Of a stretch of DNA of 45,458 nt, positions 36,764-45,458 are shown one piece after another. Position 1 is the stretch's first letter; the number at the start of each line of letters is the position of its first letter. The notes under the pieces were generated by a model that was given only the letters and a program-made list of their open reading frames with translations, ran no database searches and had not been told where the DNA came from. A program made the position numbers and the translations under genes. The DNA comes from Saprospiraceae bacterium (GTDB lineage Bacteria > Bacteroidota > Bacteroidia > Chitinophagales > Saprospiraceae): NCBI GenBank assembly GCA_020848695.1, contig JADLHT010000064.1, positions 1 through 45,458 of the forward strand. The letters run 5' to 3'.

Positions 36764-39700
36764 TTGAAAGATAAGATTATAAGATGTACTTTATTATTCC
36801 TTAATAATTTATTTTCTACTAGGGCTGCTGGACTTTATTTATTACTTTTTGCAGGAGCTATTGGATGGGCTACCTTTGTAGAGAATGATTTTGGAACTTC
36901 TGCAGCTCAAAAAATAGTCTTTAGATCTTGGTGGTTTGAGTTGTTATTAATTTTGTTTGGAATATGTATAGCCATCAATATTTATCGTTTTCGGCTTATA
37001 CCTCAAAAAAAATGGGCTTCATTAATTTTTCATGCTTCTATTCTCATTATTATCTTGGGTTCAGGCATTACAAGATACTTTGGAAATGAAGGAATAATGC
37101 ATATACGGGAAGGTGAAAAATCAAATCAGTTCTTATCCACTGAATCTTATATAAATATCAAGATAAAGGAAAATGAAAGTATATATTCAGTAGCAGAGCC
37201 TATACTTATTAGTAGTCTTGGAAATAATAAATTTAACAAACAATATCAACTAGGAAATAAAATATTCCAACTTAGACTTAAAGAAGTAATTCCTAATCCA
37301 CAAGAAACAATGGTAGAAAGTGATGAAGGAATTCCTACTATAAAAATTGTATTTGGAGGCGCTGATGGAAGGGAAGAAATATTTCTTCAAAAAGGGGAAA
37401 GGAGAAATATTAATGGCGTAAATTTTAATTTTTCTTCTGAATATTTTTCTCAAGCTTTTAATATTAATTATGATTCTTTCGGATTGGTATTTAAAACTTC
37501 AGTTCCAGTGATACAGACTATTATGGCAACACAAAAGACGGATAGTATTCCGGCAGACGAATTCCATCCACTTATGCTTAGATCTCTCTATCAATATAAT
37601 GGATCCAGTTTTGTATTTGGTGAATTTCAAAAAGATGTTCAATTAGAAGTTATTCCGACCGATAAAAAAATTAAAAATGAAAGTTTAGTGTCACTGAGAA
37701 TGGAACTCAGTTCTGCTCAAGATAAAAAAGAATTTTTGATAACAGGAAGAAAAGGAGGAGAAGGAAGACCTGCAAGCCTTTCTGTAAATAATACATCCTT
37801 TAAGATTGATTATGGATCAACTATTATTCAACTTCCATTTGCAATACAACTTCGTAACTTTAAAATGGAAAAATATCCAGGAACAAATAATGCTTCATCC
37901 TATGAAAGTGAAGTTACACTATTGGATCCTTCCAAAAGTATTCATGAAGATCATAGAATATATATGAATAATATTCTTGAATACCGTGGATATCGATTTT
38001 TTCAATCTAGTTATGATCCTGATGAATTGGGTACTGTACTAAGTGTGAACCATGATTTTTGGGGAACTTGGATTTCTTATCTTGGTTATGGACTTCTTAC
38101 TTTAGGATTAATTATGATATTTATTGTGAGAAATAGTCGATTTACTTTTTTAAGACAACGTATTAGAGAATTACAAAAAAATCAATTGACACTTTTATTA
38201 TTCTTAATTTCTTCATTTACATTATTCTGTCAGAATTTAAATATACCCAAAACAGTCAGCAAAGAACATGCGCAATTATTTTCGAAAATAATTACACAAG
38301 ATCACAAAGGAAGATTCAAGCCTATACATACAATATCAAGTGAAGTATTACGAAAGCTTTCCAAAAAAAATGAATTATATAATTTAACAGCAGATCAAAT
38401 ATTTATATCCATGAATATTAATCCAGCTGCTTGGGAGAATATTCCCTTAATTGAATCCGGCAAGCATGAAGGCTTATTAAAAAAACTTAATGCAAGTAAA
38501 GGATTACTTACATACCGAAGTTTCTTTGACGAGGAAGGCGAATATATTCTTAGTGAAGATATTCGAAAAGCACAGATGATGAACCCTAAAGATCATTCAG
38601 TTTATGAGAAAGCTATAATAAAACTTGATGAGAAAGTCAACATTACCAACATGGTATTGAATACTCGACTTCTAAAGATATTTCCTCAGCAAAATGATAG
38701 TAGTAATACCTGGCTTTGCCCTGAAGATCTACTTAGAACACAATATCAAAATAATAAGAATGGATTTCAAGAATTTTTCTTTGATCAATATTCTCATGCT
38801 GTCGAACATAGTATAGAAAGTGGTAATTGGTCAGAACCTGATGAATTAATCAATAAACTTAATCAATATCAAAATGTTGTAGCTTCTGCCATAATTCCAA
38901 GCCAATCAAAATTAAACACAGAAATATTTCTTAATAAAATTAACATATTTGGAAAACTTAGAAATTATTATGGACTGTTAGGACTATTATCCTTAGTACT
39001 TTTTATCACTTTAATATTTAAACCTGAATGGAATAAGTTTAAGTTTACAAAAGTTGTGTTCTATTTCATTCTTTTGTTTTTCGTCTTTCATACTATTGGA
39101 TTAGGATTGCGATGGTATGTATCAGGTCATGCACCATGGAGCAATGGTTACGAATCGATGATTTACATTGCATGGACTTCGGTTCTAGCAGGTTTAATTT
39201 TTTCTCATAGATCATTGGGAGGAATGACTGCATCATGTGTTCTTGCTGCAACCATTCTATTAGTGGCTGGAATGAATTGGCTGGATCCTGAAATTTCACC
39301 ACTTGTTCCAGTTCTAAAATCCTATTGGTTAATGATACATGTGTCAATGGAAGCAGGTTCTTATGGATTCTTGATGTTAGGTGCTGTTATTGGAATGTTG
39401 AATTTATTATTATTCATACTTATCACTAGACAGAATAAGATGAGAATAGAACGAGCAATAAAAGAATTAACAATCATTTCTGAAATCACCTTAATAGGTG
39501 GTTTAGTCATGGTAAGTATAGGAACCTATTTAGGTGGAGTATGGGCTAACGAAAGTTGGGGAAGATATTGGGGTTGGGATGCCAAAGAAACTTGGGCATT
39601 GGTAACAATTCTAGTATATGCATTTATACTTCATATGAGATTTATTCCAGGATTACAAAGTATTTATGCATACAATTTTGCTTCATTATTTGGATTTGCA

Positions 39701-39871
39701 ACAGTGATTATGACTTATTATGGAGTTAATTATTATTTATCTGGACTTCACTCTTATGCTGCTGGTGATCCTGTTCCCATTCCAACAGAAGTTTATAATG
39801 CTATTATAGCATTGACAATTTTAAGCATTTTTGGATATTATTTTTATCGAAAGAAGTACCTTGCAAATTAA
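36764..39871 (+). CDS. ccsBA: Fused ResB-CcsA cytochrome c heme lyase (CcsBA)
   Basis: A 1035-residue inner-membrane protein of the system II cytochrome c maturation pathway, which exports heme and attaches it to CxxCH. Residues about 15-470 are the ResB/Ccs1 part with its large periplasmic insertion. After a linker with a hydrophobic segment and a periplasmic stretch (about 480-730), the CcsA part (about 740-1030) carries the tryptophan-rich heme-handling WGWDAKETWAL (W936-D939) and flanking histidines. The TTG start at 36764 is used because the next in-frame ATG is about 110 codons in. It converges with the multiheme cytochrome operon, with eight bases between the stops, and probably serves it. 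Confidence 0.93.
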   Translation: MKDKIIRCTLLFLNNLFSTRAAGLYLLLFAGAIGWATFVENDFGTSAAQKIVFRSWWFELLLILFGICIAINIYRFRLIPQKKWASLIFHASILIIILGSGITRYFGNEGIMHIREGEKSNQFLSTESYINIKIKENESIYSVAEPILISSLGNNKFNKQYQLGNKIFQLRLKEVIPNPQETMVESDEGIPTIKIVFGGADGREEIFLQKGERRNINGVNFNFSSEYFSQAFNINYDSFGLVFKTSVPVIQTIMATQKTDSIPADEFHPLMLRSLYQYNGSSFVFGEFQKDVQLEVIPTDKKIKNESLVSLRMELSSAQDKKEFLITGRKGGEGRPASLSVNNTSFKIDYGSTIIQLPFAIQLRNFKMEKYPGTNNASSYESEVTLLDPSKSIHEDHRIYMNNILEYRGYRFFQSSYDPDELGTVLSVNHDFWGTWISYLGYGLLTLGLIMIFIVRNSRFTFLRQRIRELQKNQLTLLLFLISSFTLFCQNLNIPKTVSKEHAQLFSKIITQDHKGRFKPIHTISSEVLRKLSKKNELYNLTADQIFISMNINPAAWENIPLIESGKHEGLLKKLNASKGLLTYRSFFDEEGEYILSEDIRKAQMMNPKDHSVYEKAIIKLDEKVNITNMVLNTRLLKIFPQQNDSSNTWLCPEDLLRTQYQNNKNGFQEFFFDQYSHAVEHSIESGNWSEPDELINKLNQYQNVVASAIIPSQSKLNTEIFLNKINIFGKLRNYYGLLGLLSLVLFITLIFKPEWNKFKFTKVVFYFILLFFVFHTIGLGLRWYVSGHAPWSNGYESMIYIAWTSVLAGLIFSHRSLGGMTASCVLAATILLVAGMNWLDPEISPLVPVLKSYWLMIHVSMEAGSYGFLMLGAVIGMLNLLLFILITRQNKMRIERAIKELTIISEITLIGGLVMVSIGTYLGGVWANESWGRYWGWDAKETWALVTILVYAFILHMRFIPGLQSIYAYNFASLFGFATVIMTYYGVNYYLSGLHSYAAGDPVPIPTEVYNAIIALTILSIFGYYFYRKKYLAN

Positions 39872-42235: not shown

Positions 42236-45200
42236 TTATTTTTTGCCATCTGGGTGACAGCTGTAACATGCTGAACTTGTATAACTATATCCTTGAACTC
42301 CATTGTGATCAGAATCCGTCTGAGGTTTTGGATGACAAGGAAGGCAAGTAAATATTTTATAATTACTTGAATTCGTATGGCATTGACTACAGGTATTCCA
42401 TTCATCTTTATGCTTTCCAGAGTATATCGGAAAATACATATTGTCGTGATCAAATGATGATGGTATCCAAGCTGTTTCATTATGACAGCTAGCGCATGTT
42501 GTAGGAAATCCTGCCGATACGTGTGGAGGATTATTCGCTCCATTGTAATCATTGGCATGACATCCATAACATGTATTCGGCGTATTATTATAATTTCCGT
42601 TATGACAAGCGGTACAATTATTTTTTATTTGTAAATGTGCTCCTTTCAGCATCCAATATTGATCATGAATATCAAATGTGGCTGGAGCCCAACCCGGATC
42701 TGTTGTATGACAATTATCACATGTGGTAGGAATATTCAATGTCTTATGATTAGGATTTGTGGAGCCGTTGTATTGTGGAAGATGACATCCTACACATGTG
42801 TTTGGAGTATTATTATAATTTCCGTTCTTATGACACAATGCACAATTATCTTTCACAGGAATATGCGATCCAGTAAATGGCCAGTATTGATCATGTATTG
42901 GGAAAGTTACCGGTGCCCAACCAGGATCTGTAGTATGACATTGATCACAATCGGTAGGAATATTTAAGGATTTATGATTTGGATTTGATGATGTATTATA
43001 ATCACTTTGATGACATCCAACACAAGTATTAGGTGTATTATTATAGTTTCCTTGATGACATTTAGCACAATTATCTTTTACTGGAATGTGGGCTCCAGTA
43101 AATGTCCAGAATTGATCGTGAATTGGAAATAATGCCGGTGTCCAACCTGAATTAGTAGTATGACACATCGCACATTCAATCGACAGATTTAATATTTCAT
43201 GATCAGGATTTAGTGAATTATTATAATCTAAATTGTGGCAAGAATTACATTCTTTAGATGTTCCTTTGAATTGAGTCTTATGACAATCTTTACAATCTGC
43301 TATGATGTGTGCCCCTGTTAATGGAAAGCCACCTAAATTATGATCATAGGCCATTTTAGCATCTCCTTGTGGATGGCAAGCTAGACAAGCAAAATCTTGA
43401 TAAACATATCCACCAATTCCAATATGATCTTCATTTGTTTTTGGATTAATATGACATCCTATGCATTGGAATATTTCATATTTGGTGGGATCAATATGAC
43501 ATTCAGTACATTGACTCCATACTCCTTTATGTTTGCCACTATTAATTGGAAAATATAATCCATCATGATCAAATGTCGACGGAACCCAAGAACTTTCTTT
43601 ATGACAACTTGCACAATCAGTATTAAATTGTGAAAGTTTGTGATCAGGATTTTTAGTTAATTCATAATCTTTCTGATGACATCCGAAGCAGGTATTGGGT
43701 GTATTGTTATAATTACCATTCGTATGACACTTATTACAATCATTACGAATCAGATTATGTGCTCCTCTCAATTCATAGAACTGATCATGAATAGAGAATG
43801 TTGCAGGTTCCCAACCTGGATTCGTGGTGTGGCATTGATTACAATCTGTTGGCAAATTTAATTTCTTATGCTCTGGATTTAATGAACCATCATATTGTGC
43901 TTGATGACATGAATAACAATCTTGCCCTGATTGATTATAATTTCCTTGATGACACAAAGCACAATTATTCCTTACAGGATTATGTGCGCCCGTTAATGGA
44001 TAATAATTATCGTGTATCTCGAATTTCGCCGGACTCCATCCTGGATCTGTTGTGTGACAAGATATGCAATCCGTTGATAAATTTAATTTTTTATGGGATG
44101 GATTTAATGAAGCTTCATAATCTGATTGATGACAAGAATTACAATCAGTTGGTGTGCCCTTAAATCCTTTTGAATGACATTCAATACAGGCTGCAACTCG
44201 ATGAGCTCCTGTTAGTGGATATGTAGTATTGTTGTGATCAAATTTCATACTTGCATCTCCTTGTGGATGACAAGCAAGACACATCTGATCATTGTATGTA
44301 TATCCATTGACCATGGAATGTTGATCATCGGTTTCTGGATTCTTATGACATCCAATACAAGTAATTATTGTATAATCATTTGGATTCAAATGACATTCTA
44401 CGCAGTTATTCCAAACACCCTTATGTTTGCCAGAATAAATTGGGAAGTACATTCCATCATGATTAAATGTTGAAGGCATCCAAGCATTTTCATTATGGCA
44501 CGATTTACAATCGGTTGGAAACTGAACTACTTTGTGATCAGGATTTTTACTTGCATTATAATCTTTTTGATGACAATCAAAACAAGTGTTTGGTGTGTTG
44601 CTATAATTTCCATTGTGACAAGTTTTGCAATCGTTTCTTACAGTATTATGTGCACCTTTCAATTCATAAAATTGATCATGAATATCAAATTTTGCTGGCA
44701 TCCAATCTGGATCAGTGGTATGACATATGATACAATCTGTAGAAAAATTTAACTTTGTATGAGAAGGATTTTGACTGGTATTAAAATTATTGAGATGGCA
44801 ATTTACGCATTCTCGTGGAGTCCCTTTGAATCCAGACGTATGACATTCAAAACAATCTGTTGTATTATGTACTCCTGTAAGTGGAAAGGCTGTATTGTTA
44901 TGATCAAAACTTATGTCTGCATCGCCTGTCGGATGACAAGCTAAACAAGCATTGCTTTGATATCGATAACCCGTTACTGAAACATGCTTATTATCTGTTT
45001 CGGGATTCTTATGACAGATAAGGCAATCATATAATTTAAAATTTCCAGGTGTTGTGTGACACTCATTACAATTCGTCCATGTTCCTTTATGTTTGCCAGA
45101 GTTAATAGGAAAGAAAAATCCATCGTGATCAAATATAGAAGGAACCCAAGCTTGTTCTTGGTGACATTGTTTACATTCTGTTGAGAATCCTGTCAATTTG

Positions 45201-45458
45201 TGATCTGGATTTTTAGTAGCATCATAGTTGGATTGATGACAAGCTACACAAGTATTTGGAGTATTTGAGAATGAATTAATATGACATTGTTTGCAATCGT
45301 TAGCAATAACTTTATGTTGACCTTTTAATTCAAAAACTTGATCGTGTATATCAAATCTTGCAGGACTCCAACCAGGATCTGTTGTATGACATGTTTTGCA
45401 ATCGATTGATAAATTTAATTTTTTATGAGATGGGTCAATACTTGCATCGTAATCTTTC
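42236..45458 (-). CDS. Giant multiheme cytochrome c, at least 43 hemes (5' end outside window)
   Basis: The frame is open to the right edge, giving 1074 codons with the N-terminus missing; no start codon in the window is credible because heme modules continue to the edge. There are 43 CxxCH motifs. They fall into 14 triheme modules of about 75 residues (first-cysteine spacing 35-15-25, or 35-15-26 and 31-15-25 in two subtypes) plus one final heme. Each module has exactly three histidines outside CxxCH, in contexts such as FDHD, GKHK/GAH and NPDHK, as expected for bis-histidine hemes. The protein ends in CYSCHPDGKK without a T9SS tail. It should be a periplasmic or extracellular electron wire. 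It is the upstream gene of a tight operon with a barrel and a lipoprotein. Confidence 0.93.
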   Translation of the reverse strand, partial: KDYDASIDPSHKKLNLSIDCKTCHTTDPGWSPARFDIHDQVFELKGQHKVIANDCKQCHINSFSNTPNTCVACHQSNYDATKNPDHKLTGFSTECKQCHQEQAWVPSIFDHDGFFFPINSGKHKGTWTNCNECHTTPGNFKLYDCLICHKNPETDNKHVSVTGYRYQSNACLACHPTGDADISFDHNNTAFPLTGVHNTTDCFECHTSGFKGTPRECVNCHLNNFNTSQNPSHTKLNFSTDCIICHTTDPDWMPAKFDIHDQFYELKGAHNTVRNDCKTCHNGNYSNTPNTCFDCHQKDYNASKNPDHKVVQFPTDCKSCHNENAWMPSTFNHDGMYFPIYSGKHKGVWNNCVECHLNPNDYTIITCIGCHKNPETDDQHSMVNGYTYNDQMCLACHPQGDASMKFDHNNTTYPLTGAHRVAACIECHSKGFKGTPTDCNSCHQSDYEASLNPSHKKLNLSTDCISCHTTDPGWSPAKFEIHDNYYPLTGAHNPVRNNCALCHQGNYNQSGQDCYSCHQAQYDGSLNPEHKKLNLPTDCNQCHTTNPGWEPATFSIHDQFYELRGAHNLIRNDCNKCHTNGNYNNTPNTCFGCHQKDYELTKNPDHKLSQFNTDCASCHKESSWVPSTFDHDGLYFPINSGKHKGVWSQCTECHIDPTKYEIFQCIGCHINPKTNEDHIGIGGYVYQDFACLACHPQGDAKMAYDHNLGGFPLTGAHIIADCKDCHKTQFKGTSKECNSCHNLDYNNSLNPDHEILNLSIECAMCHTTNSGWTPALFPIHDQFWTFTGAHIPVKDNCAKCHQGNYNNTPNTCVGCHQSDYNTSSNPNHKSLNIPTDCDQCHTTDPGWAPVTFPIHDQYWPFTGSHIPVKDNCALCHKNGNYNNTPNTCVGCHLPQYNGSTNPNHKTLNIPTTCDNCHTTDPGWAPATFDIHDQYWMLKGAHLQIKNNCTACHNGNYNNTPNTCYGCHANDYNGANNPPHVSAGFPTTCASCHNETAWIPSSFDHDNMYFPIYSGKHKDEWNTCSQCHTNSSNYKIFTCLPCHPKPQTDSDHNGVQGYSYTSSACYSCHPDGKK
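42239..42496 (-). repeat. Cytochrome terminal unit: alpha module plus one heme (4 hemes)
   Basis: It encodes the last 86 residues: one alpha triheme module (spacing 35-15-26) and the first heme of a beta module, after which the protein ends within six residues. The last heme has no extra histidine of its own within the fragment. Confidence 0.9.
42497..43615 (-). repeat. Cytochrome super-repeat 3: modules alpha-beta-gamma-gamma-gamma (15 hemes)
   Basis: It encodes 373 residues: the 147-residue hexaheme block followed by three gamma modules of 75, 76 and 75 residues. It is the longest unit and lies nearest the C-terminus. Confidence 0.9.
43616..44509 (-). repeat. Cytochrome super-repeat 2: modules alpha-beta-gamma-gamma (12 hemes)
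   Basis: It encodes 298 residues: the same 147-residue hexaheme block with identical heme spacing, followed by two gamma modules of 75 and 76 residues. The extra residue comes from a Thr-Asn-Gly in place of Gln-Gly before Asn-Tyr-Asn-Asn. Confidence 0.9.
44510..45175 (-). repeat. Cytochrome super-repeat 1: modules alpha-beta-gamma (9 hemes)
   Basis: It encodes 222 residues, from the first heme cysteine of one alpha module to that of the next. It comprises a 147-residue alpha-beta hexaheme block (heme spacing 35-15-26-31-15-25) and one 75-residue gamma triheme module. The preceding sequence up to the window edge is the end of another unit with at least one gamma module. Confidence 0.9.

Follow-up and report, generated by a model that had tools for sequence, protein, structure and literature searches.

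A length-variable giant multiheme cytochrome in a conserved Bacteroidota gene cluster is a candidate electron conduit to the outer membrane

We analyzed a 45,458-nucleotide window from a Saprospiraceae genome, comprising the whole of one contig (C64), and find that the cytochrome gene at its end, here called gene B, belongs to a family of giant multiheme cytochromes with two fixed ends and a middle that varies by whole triheme units. Gene B proteins are encoded in a conserved Bacteroidota cluster beside a second multiheme cytochrome (gene A) and a predicted outer-membrane barrel. We propose, with a probability of roughly 60%, that gene B is the length-variable member of an electron-transport cluster that forms a conduit to or through the outer membrane, and its product most likely would carry electrons there from a cytoplasmic reductant.

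The 1073-residue window protein contains 43 CxxCH motifs and 86 cysteines, none of them outside the motifs, together with 86 histidines, 43 of which lie outside CxxCH and amount to one spare histidine per motif. The 42 spacings between motifs resolve into 14 triplets in the order g a b g a b g g' a b g g' g a, where a (alpha) is 35-15-26 (four copies), b (beta) is 31-15-25 (three), g (gamma) is 35-15-25 (five) and g' is 35-16-25 (two). A sequence-only reading of the window had described this regular triplet spacing, a combined alpha and beta length of 147 residues, gamma lengths of 75 or 76 and three non-CxxCH histidines at fixed places in each module; our recount reproduces each of these values, with 147 residues in all three full alpha-beta copies and exactly three histidines in 14 of 14 triplets, at offsets of 18/28/66 (g), 18/28/67 (g'), 16/28/63 (a) and 15/26/62 (b). 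Shuffling the residues of the protein 500 times yielded a mean of 0.55 CxxCH motifs and a maximum of 4, ruling out the regularity as an artefact of composition, and two or more CxxCH occur in no other stop-to-stop frame of the window. The presence of one spare histidine per CxxCH is consistent with bis-histidine ligation of hemes that would presumably be attached covalently.

Because the window is a whole contig and gene B runs off its end, 43 hemes is not the full count. The source genome (66 contigs, rated 100% complete) contains a second contig, C24, whose minus strand ends in a partial gene of 479 codons that encodes 19 hemes and opens with what looks like a signal peptide, and the ends of C24 and C64 have exactly 77 identical bases in common, an overlap resembling what an assembler would leave at a repeat. 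Joining the two contigs produces a gene of 1527 amino acids and 61 hemes, which rules out the window protein as a fragment of a short gene. A relative (G002) that is 80% identical over the window protein has 58 hemes in 15 repeat units, and 15 of the 16 units of the joined gene match these in order. The extra unit is one triheme module adjoining the contig joint, reflecting a gain here or a loss there, and the copy number at the joint is uncertain. Within this one genus, gene B occurs with 58, 61 (joined), 64 and 73 hemes.

We collected 70 complete gene B open reading frames from 90 loci (labeled L below), requiring at least nine motifs and no resemblance to gene A; complete here means a frame that does not run off its locus, and frameshifts or assembly collapse are possible among them. 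Masking within the sequence excluded two genes (L073 and the second one of L071), and the 68 readable genes that remain include one duplicate (L066 is identical to L035), giving 67 distinct genes. Heme counts across these Bacteroidota genes range from 13 to 88 and follow a 13+3n rule in 67 of 68 readable genes (66 of 67 distinct) when CX3CH and CX4CH motifs are counted, and in 59 of 68 with CxxCH alone. Off-rule counts do not refute the rule, since eight of the nine readable cases hold a CX3CH or CX4CH motif and the ninth, the 15-heme gene of L086, has CxxSH at an expected motif position; L086 may be a decaying copy, its motif gone to CxxSH and its barrel gene absent. A second set of eight loci drawn across the phylum gave 22, 43, 28, 34, 37, 40 and 43 hemes, or 13+3n in all seven complete genes once the truncated L157 is excluded. 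None of the 200-residue stretches tested is common to both sets, and five of these seven genes come from genomes assembled as a single contig. All gene B proteins are related, and these counts are therefore not independent trials.

The rule reflects how the proteins are built. In a comparison of 67 genes that leaves out L086, gene B begins with a block of spacings of about 36-16-16-34-19-25-32-16-25 that is not triheme-regular and recurs in relatives, the second to ninth spacings agreeing within 3 residues in 59 genes and the other eight each having one longer gap, and it ends with a module of 33-38/14-16/25-30 in 67 of 67. Between these ends, all 449 middle triplets fall within 30-38/14-17/23-30. 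Members with 13 hemes consist of the two conserved ends alone and keep the same gene neighbors, and gene length is linear with heme number at 24.5 residues per heme. The view that the protein is built entirely from one triheme module thus gives way to a fixed, irregular N-terminal block and a fixed C-terminal module around a middle that alone repeats, while assembly by duplication of the triheme unit gains support from relatives whose heme counts step by three and from the one unit more than G002. The alpha, beta and gamma subtypes vary by lineage; they are common in long Saprospiraceae genes, and the middle of the L120 and L072 genes is composed only of 31-16-25, ruling out three subtypes as a general rule. 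The triheme unit is general and the three subtypes are local. The sequence-only reading had named homologs lacking the spacing and three-histidine rule as its refuting test: the spacing holds throughout, and exactly three spare histidines, true of the window, relaxes in the family to at least three, with 352 of 439 units of 60-85 residues having exactly three, 78 four, 9 five and none fewer.

Variant arrangements occur at individual loci. One or two CX3CH or CX4CH motifs replace the middle CxxCH of a C-terminal-type module in L064, L078, L081, L100, L105, L110, L113 and L119. Two gene-B type cytochromes are encoded at each of L045, L050, L055, L061, L071, L074, L095 and L120, and gene B lies upstream of gene A in L061 (one of its two) and in L047 (its only one).

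Neutral repeat expansion, with module number drifting through slippage and unequal crossing over while selection plays no part and length serves no function, would fit the different module numbers within the genus. It would also fit part of a comparison of modules in 16 proteins (two of them identical copies): in some, the closest match of most modules is another module from that protein (14 of 16 in L045, 12 of 12 in L120), although in others this applies to hardly any (L033, 0 of 15; the window's species, 1 of 16). Neutral change does not, however, readily explain why spacing and histidines are kept in every middle unit (449/449 and 439/439). With off-rule counts almost absent and both features kept, each unit seems constrained, and we regard this explanation as very improbable.

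We defined the setting of gene B by scanning for loci with the membrane protein encoded at the start of the cluster and examining the best 80 of at least 299 confirmed loci. The usual gene order in relatives is a membrane protein of ~289 amino acids, a flavin adenine dinucleotide (FAD)/ferredoxin-type protein of ~450 amino acids, gene A, gene B, the barrel, a lipoprotein-like protein and CcsBA. The FAD protein is next in 80 of 80 loci, with gene A in 76, gene B in 69 and the barrel in 50; 28 of the 30 barrel-less loci run out of sequence (either within 430 nucleotides of the last cytochrome gene or before any cytochrome gene). Genes A and B overlap by 19-25 nucleotides in 54 of 68 pairs. By title, 78 of the 80 loci bear names of Bacteroidota or Chlorobiota type, the other two (L102, L115) reading only "bacterium", and other phyla may be represented among the remaining confirmed loci. 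The barrel and the giant cytochrome co-occur in the same 10 of 40 genomes, the window's own included. Whole-genome searches, again including that genome, detected the barrel in 64 of 298 genomes from the family and in 34 of 395 from the phylum, and gene A was found in 39 of 395 phylum genomes, with 33 genomes on both phylum lists.

The composition of the cluster suggests a route for electrons. A cytoplasmic donor such as NAD(P)H would reduce the membrane-anchored FAD/ferredoxin-type protein, which has Pyr_redox and 4Fe-4S domains, and electrons would pass to the membrane protein. This protein has no Pfam match at E 0.01, and its histidines 95, 109, 262 and 276 are kept in 81 of 81 sequences as two pairs 14 residues apart, an arrangement that would fit two bis-histidine b hemes. 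The putative di-heme b-type protein would then reduce gene A in the periplasm, a 20- or 23-heme cytochrome in most cases (among 83 distinct sequences scoring at least 600 against the profile and shorter than 1000 amino acids, 43 have 23 hemes, 37 have 20, and one each has 19, 17 and 26). From gene A, electrons could run along gene B, which would meet the 22-strand barrel and with it deliver them to or through the outer membrane. The conserved ends of gene B probably dock to fixed partners, and its middle would act as a spacer that lengthens or shortens by whole triheme units. Along this route we infer heme attachment, heme order, direction of flow, location and docking, and by eye both gene A and gene B have signal-peptide-like N-termini.

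The same proteins might instead run inward, with Fe(II), reduced humics or other cells as the electron source, or feed a terminal reductase encoded elsewhere. Multiheme conduits such as those of the Pio/Mto type can run both ways. The FAD/ferredoxin protein and b-type subunit nonetheless resemble a donor-side dehydrogenase module, and among the scanned cluster proteins of the window's genome none matches a known terminal reductase above cut-off, so that we consider uptake or reductase feeding quite unlikely.

The barrel is central to the proposed conduit. An AlphaFold2 model (predicted local distance difference test (pLDDT) 85.8, predicted template modeling score (pTM) 0.68) contains 22 strands, counted from the DSSP list and not from model coordinates, and no plug domain appears in that list. 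As in porin-cytochrome systems, the barrel gene clusters with multiheme cytochrome genes, here in 50 of 80 loci, and the protein itself has no match to the MtrB/PioB family at E 0.1. The only PDB match to the barrel profile, mavicyanin at E 0.024, was rejected as a relative and taken as chance. Separately, a second barrel gene lies near the cluster on the opposite strand at L096:11620-13227.

Several observations weigh against a conduit to or through the outer membrane. At E 0.1 the barrel matches neither a Pfam family, MtrB_PioB included, nor an NCBIfam one, and a Foldseek search with its model recovered general barrels, the best being pilus ushers with FimD first (template modeling score of at most 0.46 by query length), while MtrB was not in the best 50 of 277 matches at E 0.001. 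MtrB has 26 strands, and a barrel of 22 may be narrower; entry of the cytochrome into the barrel is conjectural. Gene B has no lipobox or surface anchor visible by eye. The molecular wire with a near-constant heme stack that the sequence-only reading proposed is hypothetical. An AlphaFold2 model of an 18-heme segment is weak and yields no heme geometry (51 alignment rows; pLDDT 72.5, pTM 0.43; five models from 51.9 to 72.5), and a Foldseek search of this model against the PDB returned no match at E 0.001. The full-length gene depends on a 77-nucleotide contig overlap that lies inside repeats. Among loci with sequence to spare, L075 encodes the membrane, FAD and gene A proteins and neither gene B nor a barrel in 10 kb downstream, and L086 has gene B and no barrel in the following 1280 nucleotides. 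Three of nine genomes of the window's genus give no gene B match, and some hosts are, by name, ordinary aerobes (Emticicia, Lacihabitans) with no obvious physiological acceptor.

Part of this evidence would suit a periplasmic capacitor, in which gene B remains periplasmic and acts as an electron store when conditions shift between oxic and anoxic, its capacity growing with module number, and the barrel serves acceptor entry, cytochrome export or another purpose. The linear relation of length to heme number and the lack of a visible anchor are both compatible with storage, extracellular electron transfer (EET) or capacitor-like roles have been speculated for such proteins in section 10 of PMC11495043, and the Geobacter "nanowires of hemes" are described as periplasmic in PMC10138318. 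A capacitor has no obvious need, however, for a barrel gene found in the same 10 of 40 genomes, nor for fixed ends, and the 13-heme forms keep the same neighbors. We therefore judge storage unlikely.

If gene B is instead a conduit, its length becomes informative. A dodecaheme structure is reportedly 12 nm long for 12 hemes, and on that scale a straight gene B would span ~60 nm with 61 hemes and ~88 nm with 88. The usual periplasm is narrower than these lengths, so long forms would have to fold back or extend outside. In a bolder version of the conduit proposal, each gene B protein would be a covalent electron cable made of one chain, of a class spread across the phylum: its ends dock at fixed points, its genetically adjustable length follows 13+3n hemes, and a new 22-strand barrel either holds it or lets it pass through, with long forms (60-90 nm if straight, at ~1 nm per heme) reaching well outside the cell; this version is tentative, and we think the odds are against it.

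Profile searches place gene B among c-type multiheme cytochromes. The window protein matches Pfam Cytochrome_C7 (PF14522) over five stretches at 120.1 bits against a gathering threshold of 24.8, and Mtrc-MtrF_II-IV_dom (PF22113) at 79.4 bits against 30; the latter overlaps the C7 and CIII matches and is read as a shared heme-motif pattern and not as MtrC membership. Membership in DmsE (TIGR03508; 55.6 versus 192.2 bits) and OmcA/MtrC (TIGR03507; 21.2 versus 209.3 bits) was rejected, as was membership in nanowire_3heme (TIGR04257), to which the window protein has no match at E 0.1 and gene A scores 20.3 against a curated 40 bits. A phmmer search of the window protein against PDB chains found nothing at E 0.001, and the gene B repeat profile gave seven PDB matches at E 0.006 to 0.035. 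One of these, 6r2q, which we take to be the MtrCAB entry, is listed as "Cystathionine beta-synthase" and aligns as a multiheme cytochrome. The gene A profile matches PDB 3ov0, presumably GSU1996, at E 1.3e-7.

Heme-rich giant Saprospiraceae cytochromes and Geobacter triheme nanowires are already known; for the gene cluster, the 13+3n rule and the barrel our searches of open-licence papers turned up no description. In Geobacter sulfurreducens, GSU1996 has four tandem triheme domains, and GSU0592 and GSU2210 have 12 and 27 hemes (PMC10138318). Gene B resembles these nanowires as one chain of tandem triheme domains (PMC10138318) and differs from their 12 to 27 hemes in reaching 88, with a fixed non-repeat N-terminal block and an adjoining barrel gene. 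The cluster resembles MtrAB, PioAB and Geobacter Pcc in placing multiheme cytochrome genes beside an outer-membrane barrel gene, with an inner-membrane electron source in the cluster; unlike those systems, its barrel matches no Pfam or NCBIfam model at E 0.1 and its cytochrome varies in length. The consulted text of a survey of Pcc systems from 2014 mentions Ignavibacterium album and has no instance of the word Bacteroidetes (PMC4245776). Among Danish wastewater metagenome-assembled genomes (MAGs), Saprospiraceae make up 90% of those behind the 50 most heme-rich secreted proteins, and some Bacteroidota proteins exceed 100 heme motifs, in cytochromes called undescribed (PMC11495043, 2024). These giant Saprospiraceae cytochromes very probably include the gene B family; section 10 of that paper gives motif counts and speculation on EET or capacitor roles, and within it no module rule, cluster or barrel. 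The largest Ignavibacteria cytochromes have 40 and 33 motifs (PMC7399161). Large multiheme cytochromes of ANME archaea, with up to 86 motifs, have a comparable heme number in one chain (PMC9012536). Unlike gene B, they carry S-layer domains and belong to an archaeal cell envelope.

The cytochrome nanowires described so far are, to our knowledge, either polymerized from small subunits or built as chains whose length is fixed. Here one gene family in one conserved setting keeps the same two ends and places between them anything from 0 to 25 further triheme units. Cultivated carriers include Emticicia aquatica (L083), Lacihabitans (L073, L076, L082) and Yeosuana marina (L072). If gene B is a conduit, the family would allow a direct test of how far and how fast electrons travel along heme chains of different length, and Bacteroidota, cultivated species included, may commonly exchange electrons with their surroundings. 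If the cable version holds, the family would be a natural allelic series of heme-wire length versus function.

Table 1. Features of the gene B region in the window
Feature	Coordinates	Strand	Remarks
Gene B, C-terminal part of giant cytochrome	42236-45457	minus	Open frame to contig end, 1073 codons, stop at 42236, 43 CxxCH
Conserved C-terminal module of the gene B family (approximate span)	42236..42463	minus	End spacing kept in 67/67 genes
Predicted outer-membrane barrel, 550 aa	40617..42269	minus	N-terminal helix, small beta domain ~36-106, then 22 long strands
Lipoprotein-like protein, 246 aa	39880..40620	minus	Invariant Cys 16, by eye; after barrel in relatives
CcsBA-like (ResB/CcsA fusion) cytochrome c maturation protein	36764..39871	plus	Only full-length match in genome; one weak partial match elsewhere

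Two further observations concern genes on contig C24 of the window's genome. The FAD protein there (L004:3253-4605) and its counterparts in L033, L034 and L036-L039 lack the second cysteine of both ferredoxin motifs in all seven aligned sequences, with serine or threonine in its place in the first motif and histidine in the second, a pattern that suggests substituted 4Fe clusters or 3Fe clusters. Upstream of the cluster, L004:5682-8246 encodes a zinc-metalloprotease-like protein (DUF4953/DUF5117).

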